From the NCBI RefSeq assembly GCF_964355755.1, contig NC_092672.1, positions 5,146,001-5,210,000 on the forward strand: a DNA stretch of 64,000 bases, read 5' to 3'. This stretch comes from Antedon mediterranea. Lineage: Eukaryota; Echinodermata; Crinoidea; Comatulida; Antedonidae. The position numbers and the translations under genes are program-made. Every line of letters starts with the position of its first letter. The first letter of the stretch is position 1. The notes under the pieces were generated by a model, which saw only the letters and a list, made by a program, of their open reading frames with translations, did no database searches and was not told where the DNA came from. Positions 2,346-39,427 of this stretch are shown one piece after another.

Positions 2346-5300
2346 ATGGCCATATTTTTTTACTGCTTTAATCAATAAACTGGACACCAATTGAGTTGGG
2401 AATTCATTACACAAAATTCTGAAATAAAAACATTATCTTCCTAATTTTTGTAAATCATCTTCGCCAACCATCCGGTCAAACGAGTTGGAGCTGGAAAATG
2501 TATAGATTGTTTCACCGACCAATCAGGGCTTTTGGTTGATGACCGTTCTCTACACACAAAATGGCATTAGCGGGCAGCCTGAGTAATACTCAGAATGTAT
2601 CTATTTATTATTTATAGTGATTGACCTCTTGAATTAAAGACTGGTCTCCCAGAGGGCCAGGTTATATATGTCAGTGGCTGTGTGTACTAGTACACTGGAG
2701 TAATCCTCTACTCGTCTCGAAAGATGTAAAGTGCGCATTAGCCAGATGTGTACACTGGACCTACTATTTTTTTGGTCCTTATTCAAGAAGATTCGTTCTA
2801 CCACCAGAACCATGAAGCGAGTGAGCATAAAGCTATGGATTAAGGTTTCACTACCTTAACCGCTTGACCACTCACTCGCTCAATGTGATCTCTGTTATGT
2901 CCTAAACTTGAAATTTAAAGCGTTTGTTTAAACAAAGTTAGAAATTTTTGACTATTTATAATTATGTTTCTTTGTTAAGTTTATTTATCCATGTATTATG
3001 TTGCATATTTATATACAAGACATTAGTAATCTGTTATTTTTTTCAATTTTTAAATCAGTATCAGTATTAATTAATTTCCGAATTATTATCTTATTGTATA
3101 ACAATAATAAGATGTAGAAGTAATCAATAAGGTGCTAAACTAATTATAGGTCACAGACCTAGATATGACATAATATTTAAAATTAGGCATTGTACCATCT
3201 TGCTGGTTAGTTGAGCAATAAAGTAATGTGTATGCAGTATTTTTTAATAGAGATATGATATATAGCTCAGTTTTTACTGAGACAATTTACAAACAAAATA
3301 AAAAGTAATTGCTGTTGGATGCGTATCAAATAAAAAAAAAACCTGTATAAGGGAAACCATCCAAAAACAGAAATTTAAAAATTTAAAAGGTTCCATTATT
3401 TTGAATTTGTTAATTCCTTCATCTTTTTATTTCGGAGTACCATGATGACATAATAAATCCATAACAAAAAAGAAGCTTAATCTAAGAAAACAATTGTAAA
3501 GGAAATTAAAAAAAAAAAAGAATTGAGATAGTACTGATGGAAGTTAAATAGGGATAATATTCCATTCGTTAACAGCATAACAGCACTATTTAACATAACT
3601 CTGCCTTATGAAATATAACAGTCAATCAACCTATACACACACATAATTACTGTTTATATAACACCTAAATAAATTTCTATCATTTGATTGGACGATTGTG
3701 GGTCACACGGCGTTTAATAGTACTTTTTTCGTGTACGTGAATGTCTTATATTCGTGTAATAGTACAAATAATGCCATTTGGTGAATGATGAAAGGTTATA
3801 TAATATATAATATTACCATTCATCATTCACCTCATGCCATTATTTGTACCGTTGCACTCATAAACATTCATTATTTGTATAATACTACACGTTTTTGGAA
3901 AGACGATTAGAAGAATACTTATTTATAATTACCTATTTTTATAGAGAATACATCCAGACAGGACACCATGATGACGACGACAGTTTTGAAGTATATGACA
4001 TGACCTTAAGAATATACTTCCCATACTCTATAACAGTAAAATGAAAGGTTAAGGGTCAAACTTATAAAATGGATACCTCATTTTAAAGAAAAGCCTTATA
4101 TCTTTGTAATTATTTTAAGTTGATCACAGGCTTGTAGAAGAACACCTTTGTGGTGTTACAAGCTTTTCCGTGTAAAAATAAAGTATTTATTATATTATCA
4201 ATGTGTGCTTGACCTTAGTTGGCGGATCCCTGATTTTAAAATAGGGGTAATGCTTTATCTTTATAGTTATTATATAACAGAATTATAGTTTCTGATATTT
4301 ACGAGGAAATGGGCCAGATAAAACCTTCTTTATCTCCCGATGGACCTTCAATCAAGTAGTCTGTAATATTTATTTATTAATACAGTTAACTCTCCCAATA
4401 CCGGACACCTTTGGGCTGGCCTAATAATAAGTCTGGTTTTCCCGGAAAGTCTGGTATTCGGAATGTGTTTTTAATGGTAAAAATGAATTTGGAACCTTTT
4501 AAACCTCAAGAAACGTTTGGTTTTGGAAGAGTTGACTGTAGTTATATTAGATTCAGGTGTCTACAAGTAAATTTTTTAAATACTACTGACTGAGCAGTTT
4601 CTTATTTTGGTTTCTATGGCAATAATAATATTAATACCAAAAAGAGGGTAAGTTTGATTTTAGAATATTGTGTGCAGTGGAAATTCTCCCAATATATTGG
4701 ATAAACGAAAAAACTCTAGACAGAGATAGGAGAATAGAAAACATATTAATATCGGTCCGAAGATTCATGAATTATTAAGTGAAATAGTTGATGATGTATT
4801 TTTCAAAATATTTAGTTTTAAAAATTTATAAAAACCTCCCCATATTTCATTTTTCAAAGTTCGGAGGTTTGGTATTGTTGAGATTCAATAGACAAATTAC
4901 ATTTTAAAATTATAAAACATATTACCTTTGGAATATTTAAAGTTGGAATGGATTCAAACAATGATAAGACCGAGTTACCATGGCGATGAATGAAAGATAA
5001 ATAACATGACCATATATCTTTCATTGCACATAGAAAGAAATCTCTGTTCAGGGACTCCTGTAACAAACAACATTTTTATTCATTATAGTGTACAACAATT
5101 CATATGTATTGGTCCAATTCTTTATATCACATATACAGTAGGAAAAAGTACAGTTAAGTAATATGCACACAAATAAAATAGTTTGTATGATATAAATCCA
5201 AAGGCAAATTACTGAAAAAATCAGTGGCTGGATCTCAATGGAGATACAAAATAAAATAATGACAATGCTGTGGGTATCAGTGGCTGGATCTCAATGGAGA

Positions 5301-32600: not shown

Positions 32601-35445
32601 GAAAGTCAAGCTACAGCTCTATGTATAAAAAATAATGTTAGTCCATACCTTAAAGTGTTCTTCCTGTTCAACTAATTCCCTCGACATCTGAATGACCTCT
32701 TGATCTTTCTCTTTGCCATGATTCTTCATGCTATTAACCTTACTCTCTAGTGTTTGAATGTCTTGTCTTAGAATCTCATTGCAGATGGCAGTACTCTCCA
32801 GCTGATTGTGAAGTTCACTGTCATTCTGGCTTTCCTCTTGTGTAAAACTTAATAAAAAAAAAAAACACAACACAATTAAGCTCTGTCTATACAATCAGAC
32901 CTATTTTGACAAAAAAGTGTGACATGCCTAAATATGGTAGATACAGTATGACACACCACATTTTTTGTAACATCAAGTTTGATAGTTCAGTGCAATAAAA
33001 TAAAAACAATATAGTGTTTATTTTATGTAAATTATATCTCAAAATGTATGTGTAAGCCACAAAAACTACAAGAACTTTTTGACAAGACAGTGTGTCACCA
33101 TCATGTCATTCTGTAGGTTAGTGCCTTAGTTTCTGTTTATGACATAAATCTGCTCTATATTCTGCTTTTACAGAAACTAACCTGCCAAATAAACTACTGT
33201 AGTTAAACCTGACTGAAGGTAATCAACCCCTGATCCTGGCTAAGTAAACTATGACTATAGATGTCATCCAGTAAAAAGAAATAAATAAAGCAGGTACGTA
33301 TGTTTACTTACTTTAAATCGATATTAGCTAGAGGAGATGTGCATGAGGTAGCATCTGAAGTTTGATGTGGCGTTACAGAAGTAGATTGGTCTTTAAAGGA
33401 ACGAGGAGTGAACTGGGTAGCAGTGCTCTTTACTGGCGGAGGTGTCATATTCACAGCTTCATCAACCATCACGACAGGAAAGGTTCCTTGCTCTTGCCAC
33501 GACCTTGGAGTCATCTGAGAGATGCCATCTTTCAGATGTTTTGGTGTGATACTTGTGGAACTATCTGAAACGATCTTTTGATAAGGTGTTGCAGTTGTGC
33601 CTTCATCTTTAGAAGGCACTGGTGTCATGCTGGTGAACACATGTATTGATCTAGCTGGTGTTGTGTTAACTGCAGAATTTGTTGTGTCCACATGCTTTAA
33701 GAGATTCTTTGGGGAATTGAATAGACAATCTTTTGGGCTTGAAAAACTATCTATCATTTTAACTGGAGAGAAGGATGAATGGAAGGAATGTAGACAATCA
33801 GTTGATGCTGTATCTCTGGTTGTGATCAAGTCGAAGTTATCTACATGCCATTCTGGTGAAGCATGTGAAGCACTGTCACATACATTAAACAAATTTACAG
33901 ATGTGCTTTGGAAAGGGGAATAGGATGCAAGGGACTCTTTTATTTCTATGTGGCACTGGTCTCCATCATTTTGTGGTGAGGTAGTTACTGCATCCTCTAG
34001 AGGTTTTAGAATCTGTGATGGTTCAGTTTCAGCTGATTGTGCACTTGATGTTTCTTTTAATTCTTGACTTCCTTTCGTACTGTATTTAGCATTGTCGTCT
34101 TGTAAAATTGCAAGTTGTTTTTCAATTATGCTGTTGACAAATTCTGTAATGGCATCGTCGTCAATTGGTGGAGAAACACCATTGTGTTTTAATAGAATGC
34201 TGCAATCTGGCGTGATTTGCTGAAAAAAATACAATTGGTACAAATATATATTATTTATTCTTTTCAGTGTAAATGAAATAGAACTCAAAAAGGCATACAC
34301 TAATCACAGCTACATAGAAATATTTTCTCTAAACAATGACGTACATAGTATGAAACCTCACTCCTATCCTAAATACTGTATAACCGAACTTAACCCTCTA
34401 AACACTCCATTCTAAAGAATTAATTATAGAGTGCATTGCTGTGCTCTAACATAGGCACATGTCGTATTATGTGTAGCATTGTGTGGTGTTTAGTAAGATC
34501 AAGCTATTCATATTATCATAAAAATATACAATAATATAAATGACAGAGCTTTATGGCTAGTGTTGCCTGAAAGCTCTGCTAACTCATTTTTCTGGTTGGT
34601 TTACTTTATCGTTTTGATTTAGCTTTTTGCTTATTTTATTTTGTATCTCCATTGAGATCCAGCCACTTATACCCACAGTATTGTCAATTTCTTTCAGTAA
34701 TTTGCCTTTGAATATTATAAATTAATATACCAGTTTTTCTTCTCTAATGTTTACTTTACAGGGTGATGCATCTCCTTGACTAATTTTAGGCTTTTCAACT
34801 GATTCATCTCTTAGAATGCAAGGGGTCTTGGATCTTTTTAATTGCTTCTTTAGAGGTCGTACTGGGGTAAAGCAGGTTGGAGAAAAAGATTCCTGATGAT
34901 CAGTAGTAGATGGCTTCTTTCTGGAGAGAGTCGTCGCTGGTGTGAGTGACAACAAACTGGTAGAGGAGTTCACAAGACTAAGAGGCTTGCGATGTGGAGT
35001 TTTGCATCTTGTAACAGATTTCTAAATTTAAAAAGAAAACATGTTTAGCATCCTGTATTATTATCAAAAAAGGAAGGAGGAGGCCCCCCTCTCACTTTTC
35101 CTCCCCAAAGTGTGTCGCCTGTTTTCGTCGATCCTTCTGACGTGAACTATTGTATCTCAAATGTTTAAGTCTTGACAAAAAATAAACAAAATACAACATA
35201 CTTTTATCTCTTTTTAAAGCATACTGTAAAGGAATGTTTAAACAAAAAAAGGCGGTGTCCAAAAAAGAAGCGAGCGCTAATCATTAATCTTTTTTCATTT
35301 TACCTAAATAAACTACTGTACAAAAAAAGAAGCAGTAAACACAAATTAAAATGCAACAATTATTGTTTGATTTGTTACTCACAATGTGTCGTTGAGAAAG
35401 TTTGTTTTCTTTGTCCTTGTCTACAAGAGGTGTGTGGTGATACAT
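23664..35445 (-). CDS. SPAG5: Sperm-associated antigen 5 (astrin) homologue, mitotic spindle/kinetochore coiled-coil protein
   Basis: Astrin acts with SKAP at spindle microtubules and bioriented kinetochores. Eighteen exons: 35383-35445, 34731-35021, 33312-34219, 32649-32847, 32060-32150, 31415-31681, 30943-31032, 30213-30441, 29636-29846, 28930-29095, 28047-28234, 27707-27878, 27026-27510, 26626-26860, 25835-26002, 24918-24992, 24284-24364, 23664-23738; about 1,330 aa (human 1,193). The first about 420 residues are Ser/Thr/Pro-rich with a run of MTPxS/FTPRS-like repeats, like human TTPFSTCS...FTPSAPQEKST; the rest is almost all coiled coil. Best anchors: SILQAINGG with GSESSAFTAVKP (human SILTAVADE, GSDKSAFTRVAS), CSLFQKLVSSMKENE, and the C-terminus AEEEIVQLDTMLD + VTNIPASF + IQGLHELF (human EKLDDIVQHI, LLSIPEVV, LQGLLEFL). 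Phases agree everywhere except exon 32060-32150, whose 91 nt breaks frame (see findings). The start is the first ATG in the 35383-35490 open segment. Confidence 0.9.
23741..23980 (-). mobile_element. LINE 3' fragment abutting the last SPAG5 exon
   Basis: The minus frame encodes ALWNGLPIFIRRATSIAYFK and VALKTHLFNSFF, the WNxLPxxIR...FKxxLKTHLF ending of many LINE reverse transcriptase proteins. It runs into an ATT-repeat tail (23750-23764), only about 12 bp from the splice acceptor of SPAG5 exon 23664-23738. Confidence 0.8.
24025..24110. mobile_element. Pogo-like MITE fragment
   Basis: Contains ACACTAGAACCCCTATTACGGGAACACC and AGTGTTCCCTGAATA, the end motifs of the pogo-like elements described at 63747. 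No complete second end is seen. SPAG5 last intron. Confidence 0.45.
24127..24258. mobile_element. Family A MITE copy
   Basis: CTGTCTACACTATCAAAATT and GTTTGGTAGTGTAGATAGAGC are the ends, with TATATGGACATGATGATGTC inside. Its edge is 26 bp from the donor of SPAG5 exon 24284-24364. Confidence 0.88.
24401..24535. mobile_element. Family A MITE copy with internal 24-bp repeats
   Basis: The left end CTTCTCTACACTATCAAATT is followed by three CTACCATATTTGGGCATAT-like units in a row, which produce the open frame at 24441-24623. The right end is missing. SPAG5 intron. Confidence 0.8.
24690..24840 (+). repeat. Headless SINE copy, plus orientation
   Basis: GATCAAGACACAACTTTGCACC, ATTACTAGCTGCATTTAATGG and GTATGTTTCCATG match the body of the SINE at 21735-22045; the tRNA head is absent. 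It ends in an AT-rich tail. SPAG5 intron. Confidence 0.75.
25199..25437. mobile_element. Family B MITE with duplicated left arm
   Basis: Ends AGCTTGGTTCCCACTAGAACG and CGCTAGTGGGAACCACGCTTT. The first 57 bp occur twice head-to-tail (starting 25201 and 25258), virtually identical. The interior includes CAATGGCAAGCGAAGTTATAGACAG and TTGTGATTGGTCAATTCACTTG. SPAG5 intron. Confidence 0.88.
26112..26400 (-). mobile_element. LINE 3' fragment with RT C-terminus
   Basis: The minus frame encodes RAFSCAAPILWNKLPIDIK and NTFKTRLKTHFYTEAFPA, followed by a short 3' UTR and a GATT-repeat tail (plus-strand ATCA units near 26121-26142). It shows the same C-terminal pattern as 23741-23980 but a different tail, so it is a separate LINE family. 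SPAG5 intron. Confidence 0.82.
27945..28043 (-). repeat. SINE remnant touching a SPAG5 donor site
   Basis: GGTTGCAATCCTGTTCACAG, ATTACAAGTTTTTGAGAG, CCTGAGAAAAAATCTGACAAG and TTTGAACCCATTACC match the body and B box of the SINE at 29962-30182. Its tRNA-head end stops within a few bases of the donor of exon 28047-28234. Confidence 0.6.
28263..28392. mobile_element. Family A MITE copy, left end missing
   Basis: From AAAAAATGTGATGTGCCC to GTGTAGACAGAGCTTAAA it is identical by eye to 28436-28565, displaced by 173 bp. The breakpoint is about 28 bp upstream of the acceptor of SPAG5 exon 28047-28234. Confidence 0.88.
28401..28566. mobile_element. Family A MITE copy, full length
   Basis: Ends CCTTGTCTACACTATCAAAC and GTTTGATAGTGTAGACAGAGC. 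It forms a tandem pair with 28263-28392. SPAG5 intron. Confidence 0.9.
28590..28708. mobile_element. Family A MITE copy, shorter
   Basis: GACTACATTATCAAACTTTATG and GTTTGATAGTGTAGACAGC are the ends; the interior lacks one TTTGGGCATATCAC unit. It is the third member of the cluster at 28263-28708. Confidence 0.82.
29157..29296. mobile_element. Family A MITE copy, full length
   Basis: AAGCTCTGTCTACACTATTAAAG and TTTGATAGTGTAGACAGAGCT are inverted ends of a 140-bp element. SPAG5 intron. Confidence 0.9.
29962..30182 (-). repeat. tRNA-derived SINE, minus orientation
   Basis: Shares CATTCACTATCCTT, GGCAATCCTGTTTACAAGAC, GGAGTGGAGTTGTAATTTGTC and the B-box-like region CCTGACATATGACAGGACTTG with 14885-15105. 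The head on the minus strand has AATTGTGGCTTGGTAG. It ends about 30 bp from the donor of SPAG5 exon 30213-30441. Confidence 0.75.
30595..30905. repeat. Two direct copies of an interspersed repeat
   Basis: CCCAGCATTGAAGGGCCATTAGGAGTGCTAAACC...GCCACTGCTT-like sequence occurs at about 30650-30740 and again at 30792-30875, with CAACAAGAAGT following each time. The first block opens CTGGCTAAACCCAGGGGCC. SPAG5 intron; the open frames here are repeat-derived. Confidence 0.6.
31116..31336. mobile_element. Inverted-repeat MITE, GCGTCGTACAATAAGGCC type
   Basis: AAGGCCACCTCAAACAGCGTCGTAC at the left pairs with GTACGATGCTGTCTGAGTTGGCCTTT at the right. The interior has CTCATCGGGG and CTCGTCGGGATTCAACTCAGAC. 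One copy seen. SPAG5 intron. Confidence 0.72.
31701..31848. mobile_element. Family A MITE copy, full length
   Basis: AAGCTCTGTCTACACTATCAAA and AAGTTGATAGTGTAGACAGAGCT are the ends. It begins about 19 bp upstream of the acceptor of SPAG5 exon 31415-31681. Confidence 0.9.
31920..32010 (+). mobile_element. LINE-type 3' tail fragment
   Basis: GTTGATCACGACCTTGTAGAAG, CAAGCTTTTCCGTGTTAAAATAAAG and an ATT-repeat tail match 4095-4200. SPAG5 intron. Confidence 0.55.
32879..32987. mobile_element. Family A MITE copy, diverged
   Basis: AAGCTCTGTCTATACAATCAGAC, GTGTGACATGCCTAAATATGG and CATCAAGTTTGATAGT are recognisable; the right terminal part is degraded. It begins about 30 bp upstream of the acceptor of SPAG5 exon 32649-32847. 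Confidence 0.75.
34600..34720. mobile_element. Half copy of the foldback element
   Basis: TACTTTATCGTTTTGATTTAGC, TTTGTATCTCCATTGAGATCCAGCC and TTTCAGTAATTTGCCTTTG match the right half of the element at 5187-5645, without the 56-bp array. It ends about 10 bp from the donor of SPAG5 exon 34731-35021. Confidence 0.75.
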
Positions 35446-36659
35446 TATGGTACCTATATATACACAATAAACAAATTTCAAAGAAATCATAACTAAATTT
35501 TACTAATTAGGCTAGATAGGGCTATATGTATGTAGCACTCACTCTGTCTGGGACTCTCTGTGGCCCCTGCTGGGGGAAAGTCACAAAAAAGAAAACATTT
35601 TAGTTTTAAAATGCAGTCGGTACTAACTAGGCACAGTCAGCAGTATTCAATTTATATAGCCTTGCTAGAGGCAAAGGGTCAGTATTATGTTTCATCTTCA
35701 TTGATTGAGCCTACTTGCCTAGTAGGCTAGGCGGATCCGGCTAGGCTAGCTAAGCCTAGGTACGGTAAGCTACTACCCGCGAGGAATCGCTGACTGAGTG
35801 AGTGTAGGGGCCTAGCCCTAGGCTCCTTCTTGTCTTGGCTGGGGTGACAGCGTGACATATCACAAGTGATGATAACCAACTGTTGTATTATACATTTAAT
35901 TATTTATAAATTACTAGCCTATGCTACTTACACAAAGAGAGATAGAAAAATCAAAACAAAAATCTCACGATCAATTCATTTAAACACCTTTTAAATTTGG
36001 TGTCAATTAGCTTTGTGTATTCTCAACGCTGATTGGTCCATTGACATTCATTCGAATAATACTGCGCCCTCTATTAAGTTTGTCCAAACAAACTTCTAGT
36101 CTTGATGTACGTAAATGATTTATGACTATGAAAAGTGTATTTATTCAAACAGTGTGTTGCCAAACTTAACATGAAAATAAAGAGTCTTTCAAGTAAATAA
36201 AACTCATGATATACCATAATTGTTTGTTGTATATATGGAATTTTTATTCTGAAATAATCAATATATTATTATGTCGTATTGGACGGTTAAAAGTAATTGT
36301 AAGTAATCCGTTTAGCAGCTAAGTAGTCTTCCGTATAATTATTCACTGTGATTCAAATTATCCGATTATTGCACTGAAATTGCGTTCGTTGTACGTCTGG
36401 TTATTGCGTTCGTTGTAGCCTGCGTTTGGCTGGATATTGCTTTCGTACTTTAAAAAGTCTCTGTTTGATCTTATTAGCTCTTCCCTCTGATCTTCGACAA
36501 ACAACAACAGCATAATAGTTCAAATTGCTGGTCTCTTACCATGATCCTTTTAGCCGTTAATTAATCAAATTAGCATTGTGTGTAAGTCAATAAGTTCCGT
36601 CCTATTGTAACACAAATAATGTTTTCAATCACTTTTAGAAAAAGTTTCTCTCTGCGTAT
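35446..36659. other. Region between the SPAG5 start and the unknown gene
   Basis: This must contain the SPAG5 5' UTR and promoter; the stretch 35520-35830 carries several TAGGCTA and AGCCTAGG words and is more GC-rich. It also holds the 3' UTR of the unknown gene, whose stop codon is at 36660. I see no further exon. Confidence 0.5.
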
Positions 36660-38624
36660 TTAAACTGTATATTCTACCTCTTCAACCTCCATTATTGGTT
36701 CCATGATTTTTGCAACTCCACTAACCTTTCGAAATTTATGTTTATCTCTAATTACAAAGGTTTTTTGACCGCTTCCACTTGGTTTATTTTCAGGAGCTCG
36801 TCTGTACTCGACCGTCATACCACAAATGTTCTGTAGTCTTCGCATATAGCACTCCTGATCAAATCGAACGTCGTCAATTTGGTCTTGAACCGTGTTAATT
36901 TTCTGCAGGTTGTACGAAACCATTTCCATCCGTCGACTGGATTCACGCCGAAGCTTTGAGGCGATTAAATCAAGAACTTCGCCTCGATGCAAGCCATGGC
37001 AATCAGGAACCGGATTCTGACAAATTCTAGCCCAGTCTGATCTTGCTCGCTCAACCTGTTGGATCAAACATTTGCTGAGAGTGACGATGGAATTAAGTTG
37101 TTGATCAACGTTGGTTAGAGGACTTGCATCTATATCATACTCTTCACTTGGATCTTCTTGATCTTCCAGGAAGTGTTTGACAGCGTCTTTATCCTCCTTA
37201 GTGACGTCATGCCAATACACTCTTACATTGTCCCAATATCTGGAAAAATACTCCAGCTCCTCTATGTCTTCCTTTATTTCGAAAGAGTCAAACGATTCCT
37301 CTTTTTCGTCATCATTGAAATCCAGTGTGTTTGTGTGCACTTTCAAGTTTTCGTAGTCTTCTGTTTTCTCTGTCTTAACTGTCAATTTTGCTGACACGTG
37401 ATCAATGTTGTTGAAGGCTCGCACTTCACGTTCTGCCTGTACACATTTGCTCAACATTTTCACTTCCTTGGTGTTTACTGATTTGTCTGCCATTTCAAAT
37501 GAACGTGTCATTGTGCCGCTCTCTATCAACTCCTTTTTGAGTGTCTGTGTCTCGTCATCAACCATTTTTGGTTTAACCTTTCGACTTCTGGCTTTTTTGG
37601 TGAGACGTGCCAATCTAAAAGCTTCACTTAGCTTTCCTCTCTTTTTCTTCTTTGGCTTCTCCTCTTCATTGGAAGCGGCTGTATCAATTCCAGTTGATGT
37701 CTGTGACGACACTGTGCTGTCCATCTCGACCTCAAAAGAAGTGTCTGAAGCAGTTGACAGTTCAGGGCTTTTGGCAGCACCAACTGATGCAGCTTTGGCG
37801 GAGGGTGGGCGTTTAGATGACGCAATACCAATTGAGAAATCATCATCTTCTCCCATTACGTTTCTAATTTCGACTTGAAGGGCATCCCATTTTCTGACTT
37901 CTCTTTCTCGTTTCAGTTCGTCCCTTCGACGGCGTCGAGAAGTCGGGCTCTCACAGCCAGGAATATTTTCTTCCACTCTACTGAAAGATTTAACACCAGA
38001 CTCCTTAATTCTACCAACTGTAGTATATCTAGCTGGTGACCATGTACTTGCAACAGCTTGACCAGTAGTAGGCCTACTGGTGGTAGCGGCATTCGAATCG
38101 TCATTGGAAACAACCTGGATAACAAACAAATATATTTATTTAAAAACAGATATGTATTTATATGGCTAAATTACAATGTGATCGAGAATAAAATGTTAGC
38201 TTACCTGCTGTTGTCGTCTATTGCGACGGTTGAAGAATCTACGGAACCGTGCAAAGCGACGCCACCATGGAGAGGATGGACGTGCCTATCAATAAATATG
38301 AAATAAGATAAACTTCTTAAAAACAACTTTAAAAAAACCCATAAAATATGTAAATATGCTAGCAATGACATGATTGATAAACATTTTACATGTTTGTTGA
38401 TCGAAAATATTGACATAATTAAAGTATGCACCCACTAGGCTACACCTCGTTCGCGCACCAAGCCGATCGAACACCACTTCTACGCACTCTTACCTCTTAA
38501 CAAATTTCATGTACGGTCTTATAAAAGTATCGCTTAAAATTAAACATTCTTTACTCACGTTTTCTCTGCGATATTCTTCATTTTGTTGTTGTAGTTTATC
38601 AACTGATTGTTTATTTTCAGCCAT
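36660..38624 (-). CDS. Unrecognised 533-residue charged protein
   Basis: I do not recognise this gene. Three exons, 38559-38624, 38205-38285 and 36660-38114, join in phase 0 with good GT-AG borders; the large last exon is open for 485 codons, so the gene is probably real. Features in order: a Gln/Glu-rich helical start; a strongly basic aromatic segment (PWWRRFARFRRFFNRRNRR, residues about 28-46); a Ser/Thr-rich region; a basic cluster (SRRRRRDELKRER); an acidic segment; a second basic cluster (KKKKRGK, about 204-210, possible nuclear signal); DETQT (about 236-240), which resembles the dynein light chain LC8 anchor; KSVNT and KCVQA, degenerate versions of the same pattern; then an acidic stretch and a C-terminal predicted helical domain of about 200 residues with RYWDNVRVYWHD and DQECYMRRLQNICG. 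No signal peptide or membrane segment is seen. Function unknown. Confidence 0.8.
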
Positions 38625-39427
38625 CGTAATGAATTAAAATCTTTTCCGAGTATAAATATTGAATATTTAACTAAGAAATCACTGAGATAAGTTACTTTCC
38701 AGCGTGCTTAGAAAGAATGATAAGGTTTGTTGACACCGTACCTCCTTGGTAACTTTGTGTACGAGCCTATGGTAACGTTACGCGAGCGTATCTTAGGCAT
38801 GGAAACGGTGACGCGTTTTAAAAGTAAGTTTGAAAAACAGCGCCGCACACCAAGTTTACCCAGATAAATAGCTAACTATTCAATAGAGGGATTAATGACA
38901 TTTACCTTACTCAGTACTTATTATTACATTTATTATCAATAAATATCATGTTACACTTTTCATTCGTTTGTTACACTTATATAACTATATATTTCATTAC
39001 AAAATAAACTATTATTACTAGTACTATTACAACCTATATCTACTTGTTCGCAACTGAGGACGAACAATGATTTCATAACAAACTTATACTACAAACGATA
39101 AACTTTTTTACATACGTCGTTTAATAGAAAAAAAAGTGGAAATCTGTATTAAACGGGATAAAAATTACATACGCTTTAAACTTTTATATATATTCAATAA
39201 TATAAAATTGTTTTTGATAAACATCTTAAAACATTAGGATTATTAAACTAAAATTCATGAAATTAAAATGTAGGCCTCCTAAGCAAAGGTGGGACTTTAT
39301 TACTGAACTATTTTACAATATGGTACGGGAATATAGAACCTTTTGTGGGTACGATCGACGAAGGTCTCATCGATAAATAATCGAATATAATCGCTATCTT
39401 ATTATTATTATTATTATTTATTATTCT
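38625..39427. other. Intergenic region before the SLC6 gene end
   Basis: Holds the promoter and 5' UTR of the unknown gene at its left (with CpG-containing sequence around 38755-38845) and AT-rich DNA beyond, ending in an ATT repeat at 39401-39425. It also contains the 3' UTR of the SLC6 gene. No coding exon is seen. Confidence 0.55.
39401..39425. repeat. ATT trinucleotide repeat
   Basis: A TTA/ATT run that ends three bases beyond the stop codon of the SLC6 gene and would therefore be transcribed as the first part of its 3' UTR. Confidence 0.85.

Follow-up and report, generated by a model that had tools for sequence, protein, structure and literature searches.

A three-exon gene of unknown family in Antedon mediterranea is one of five constrained paralogs in its own genome

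A gene that appeared to be an orphan in the genome of Antedon mediterranea turned out to be one of a family of five constrained, duplicated genes in the same genome. It lies in the window analysed here, a 64-kb stretch of DNA (C3:5146001-5210000), where three exons on the minus strand (36660-38624) are spliced into a product of 533 aa, with GT-AG introns that are all in phase 0 (Table 1). The longest frame of the window is a 491-aa stop-to-stop frame holding exon 3, compared to at most 228 aa in 30 windows simulated with matching dinucleotide content. The product of exon 1 is a short, charged segment, and the 360 bases 3′ of the stop codon contained no polyA signal. Since four paralogs have the identical exon layout and show constraint at the protein level, the gene model is beyond chance, and the window locus is an intact protein-coding animal gene. 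The original prediction had described a real three-exon gene with consistent phases, a 485-codon last exon, an Arg/Trp/Phe-rich segment, two basic clusters and a helical C-terminal domain. The gene and its last exon, which consists of 484 open codons plus the stop, were borne out, and the remaining elements are all present, the clusters as RRRRR and KKKKR and the helical domain as a predicted one. Additional to that first reading are the five-gene family, the Arg/Trp/Phe segment as a separate and most conserved exon, and a regular array of TQT-like motifs.

Table 1. Features of the window gene, with positions counted from the first base of the window.
Feature	Position	Strand	Residues or location	Basis or remark
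Exon 1	38559..38624	-	1-22 (22 codons)	ATG start, GT donor; present in all five paralogs
Exon 2, basic-aromatic segment	38205..38285	-	23-49 (27 codons)	AG/GT borders, phase 0; in all five paralogs
Exon 3	36660..38114	-	50-533 + stop	484-codon open frame plus stop (485 codons)
RPSSPWWRRFARFRRFF, most conserved family element	38232..38282	-	24-40	Alignment and genome-wide DNA pattern
Basic cluster RRRRR	37923..37937	-	109-113	Sequence
Basic cluster KKKKR	37638..37652	-	204-208	Sequence
LC8-site-like array, four 12-residue units (TQT, TMT, VNT, VQA)	37419..37562	-	234-281	Motif spacing
C-terminal domain, predicted helical hairpin	36822..37121	-	381-480	Common to C4 paralogs
X-box-like 14-mer ACCTCCTTGGTAAC	38740..38753	+	About 120 bases before ATG	X-box consensus fit; weak

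A six-frame search of the genome (354 Mb in 18 contigs) identified four relatives of the C3 gene, namely two near copies in tandem on C11 (C11A and C11B) and, on C4, a more divergent pair that is likewise in tandem (C4A and C4B), the three loci being on different chromosomes. C11A and C11B are 89-90% identical to the C3 gene across exon 3, and the C4 proteins are 21-27% identical to the C3/C11 proteins. Spliced models of the four relatives encode 531, 528, 336 and 318 aa and have the three-exon, phase-0 layout of the window gene; both C11 proteins stop two residues before the end of the window protein. All five members combine the three-exon, phase-0 structure with RPSSPWWRRFxRFR in exon 2 and a C-terminal RA...W...C..P.P domain. 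The exon-2 motif and the C-terminal domain are defined as two family signatures that can be used for searches by others. Genome searches seeded with C4A and C4B gave no further family members, with the reservation that a missing match in such a search does not prove absence. A weak extra match on C5 belongs to a separate gene, where the matched stretch looks by eye like a class C (GABA-B type) receptor tail.

The proteins of this family are under purifying selection. The 92 differences between C3 and C11A comprise 37 synonymous and 55 non-synonymous ones (dN/dS 0.41), and the comparison of C4A with C4B gave dN of 0.40 and dS of 1.66 (ratio 0.24); in parts of exon 3, dS is too high to be corrected. 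The C3 and C11 copies align at 91-92% from exon 2 through the second intron to exon 3, and for exon 1 with its flank the value is 87-88%. A stretch downstream of the window gene (35952-36220) has its match upstream of C11A, as would be expected if both loci descend from one tandem array. Beside the window gene, at 36380-36430, there are two units of a 24-bp minisatellite, TTGCGTTCGTTGTACGTCTGGTTA, and a strong expansion of this repeat was seen in the C11 spacers (L009 about 650-1450 and 3525-4470; 31 seed matches). C4A and C4B are near-identical in the 5′ flank and exon 1 (L010 1700-1860 and 7700-7920), with synonymous sites of exon 3 near saturation, and this 5′ near-identity suggests either local gene conversion or strong constraint. 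On the opposite strand within the C4 tandem pair (L010 227-535 and 5171-5575, minus strand), frames were observed that by eye resemble exons of a glutathione S-transferase.

The basic-aromatic segment of exon 2 is where the five proteins agree most. Its motif, RPSSPWWRRF[AS]RFR[RK][FY]F, is nearly invariant in the alignment of proteins that are otherwise 21-27% identical, and the corresponding DNA pattern occurs at exactly five places genome-wide, all of them family genes, with 0 for the reversed control. A transposable element was ruled out, because the pattern has only these five genomic places. An amphipathic helix of basic and aromatic residues can be drawn for the segment, and about 10% of shuffles reached its helical moment, which is therefore not unusual for its composition. 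Calmodulin binding was considered and rejected, as a 1-5-10 spacing (W30, A34, F39), judged by eye, suits the C3/C11 copies but not the C4 copies. A full-text literature search for SPWWRRF returned no paper.

The C-terminal domain is homologous to its counterpart in the C4 proteins, with E 3e-7 in one BLASTP comparison. AlphaFold predicted a pair of long helices flanking a P-x-P loop, with pLDDT mostly between 60 and 78 for the block, declining to about 50 where helix 2 ends and below 50 in the flanks, and the C4A model gave the same outline at lower confidence. The helical hairpin is a prediction of moderate confidence. The charged middle part of the protein, which is mostly confined to the C3 and C11 proteins, is low in complexity and, judging by its composition, probably disordered.

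Pfam showed no match for the window protein at E<=5. With permissive cut-offs, the family members gave sub-threshold noise only and no Pfam family at or near its cut-off, SPIN90_LRD (E 0.015-0.03 in one family member) being part of that noise. Searches of the PDB by sequence and by profile returned chance matches only, Foldseek against the PDB had a best E of 0.67 with generic helical proteins, bacterial, archaeal and viral contigs, which together with the gene's own genome were the genomic sequences covered, contained no relative, and Rfam had no match within the window. The statement that no domain is familiar thus held up under profile search and structure prediction (Pfam, PDB and Foldseek), neither of which gave a clear match to a known family, and "unknown family" stands for Pfam, the PDB, and bacterial and viral collections. 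In this respect the window family is like orphan (taxonomically restricted) animal gene families, which are likewise intact, constrained, duplicated genes without a catalogued domain.

Residues 234-281 comprise four units, VDDETQTLKKEL, IESGTMTRSFEM, ADKSVNTKEVKM and LSKCVQAEREVR, whose motifs lie at 238, 250, 262 and 274, a spacing of exactly 12 residues, and an additional TNT at 310 is in phase with them. With literature-type motifs, three- and four-term regular spacing was reached in 0 of 4000 local shuffles. Shuffle frequencies for the density of TQT-like motifs alone were about 0.01-0.04, and a motif-free periodicity test over periods 6-30 was borderline, with 29 of 500 shuffles reaching the observed value. 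Because the definition of a TQT-like motif was picked after the sequence was seen, these statistics are suggestive only. The anchors of the array are identical in the C3 and C11 copies. The array is missing from both C4 paralogs and is therefore not the function common to the family.

The motifs resemble sites for the dynein light chain LC8 (DYNLL). The strict ELM pattern for LC8 binding is [^P].[KR].TQT, and no motif of the window protein fits it in this form. For this reason we termed the array LC8-site-like and did not file the protein as a client, though many proven LC8 sites deviate from TQT (PMC12057147). In LC8 motifs, which span about eight residues, threonines flank a Q anchor, and anchors with N, M, S or G in this place are also known (PMC10046861, PMC12057147). 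For example, TMT is a verified LC8 site in Drosophila ASCIZ (PMC10046861), and gephyrin binds LC8 via EDKGVQCE (PMC12057147), which LSKCVQAE of our array resembles. Anchors of the type [TVI][Q/N/M/S/G]T were found at 238, 250 and 262 (and at 274 with A at +1), that is, at least two within a region that is disordered by composition. Dynein light chains are encoded in the same genome. ASCIZ and Nup159 are known multivalent LC8 clients (PMC5963919). The window protein is similar to ASCIZ/ATMIN, Nup159, Chica and Bassoon in that a charged, probably disordered stretch carries several motifs of the TQT type; TMT and other non-TQT anchors, as in the window protein, are documented (PMC10046861, PMC12057147). 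It differs from them in its strictly regular 12-residue spacing, its single canonical TQT and the putative status of its LC8 sites, and no similarity to them was found outside the motifs.

We infer, as a tentative reading, that the protein is a scaffold inside the cell, mostly charged, of low complexity and probably disordered, which in the C3/C11 branch would be paired by LC8. LC8 dimers would bind the 234-281 array and thereby hold two chains side by side. Anchoring of the complex on an acidic surface, for instance membrane lipid or a further protein, would fall to the basic-aromatic segment of exon 2, and phosphorylation of the invariant RPSSP might act as a switch for it. A partner would be bound by the C-terminal helical hairpin. 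If LC8 does bind the array, the branches with and without it in one genome would offer a natural comparison for the origin of multivalent LC8 scaffolds.

About as likely as this scaffold is an adaptor of two modules that works without LC8, in which the exon-2 helix would bind membrane lipid or a partner and the hairpin a second partner, leaving the middle part of the C3/C11 proteins as a fast-evolving spacer. What all five proteins have in common is confined to exon 2 and the C-terminal domain, and the array-free C4 proteins and the borderline motif-free periodicity also agree with such an adaptor. It requires, however, that the TQT-like spacing be fortuitous, against which stand the exact 12-residue spacing, not reproduced by any shuffle when literature-type motifs were used, and the array anchors that remained unchanged between C3 and C11. 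Rather unlikely, in our view, is a new animal protein family whose ancestor was a two-module adaptor of basic-aromatic helix and helical hairpin, and in which the C3/C11 branch alone acquired the regular 12-residue array for LC8 binding; the outcome would be a previously undescribed scaffold paired by LC8.

In a further, improbable reading, the basic clusters would direct the protein to the nucleus, where it would be associated with nucleic acid or chromatin in the early embryo or germ line. The C3/C11 proteins contain other basic stretches besides RRRRR and KKKKR, all of them resembling nuclear localisation signals, and a protein that is disordered by composition, duplicated and fairly fast-evolving would suit this role, but Pfam revealed no DNA- or RNA-binding domain and the clusters are largely missing in the C4 proteins. 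The least probable reading is a ciliary or flagellar protein controlled by RFX. In its favour are the X-box-fitting 14-mer about 120 bases upstream of the ATG in both C3 and C11A, RFX half-sites at similar positions in C4A and C4B, and the action of LC8 in the ciliary-centrosome system (PMC9481538). The 14-mer is weak evidence, as chance would supply about 0.09 of them per 300 bases; it is absent from C11B, C3 and C11A do not count as independent cases, and axonemal-protein folds matched at E 0.67 or worse.

Two neighbouring genes were also observed in the window. A coiled-coil gene adjoins the window gene at about 26.6-35.0 kb on the minus strand, and one of its exons (33311-34303, minus strand) contains repeated S/T-x-T-P units (TSMTP, TTATP, SITP, QMTP, NMTP, QFTP and SVTP) and has no Pfam family. 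Directly upstream of the window gene, at 39.9-46.2 kb on the minus strand, lies a gene for an SLC6-type sodium:neurotransmitter symporter, with Pfam SNF detected in several of its exons.
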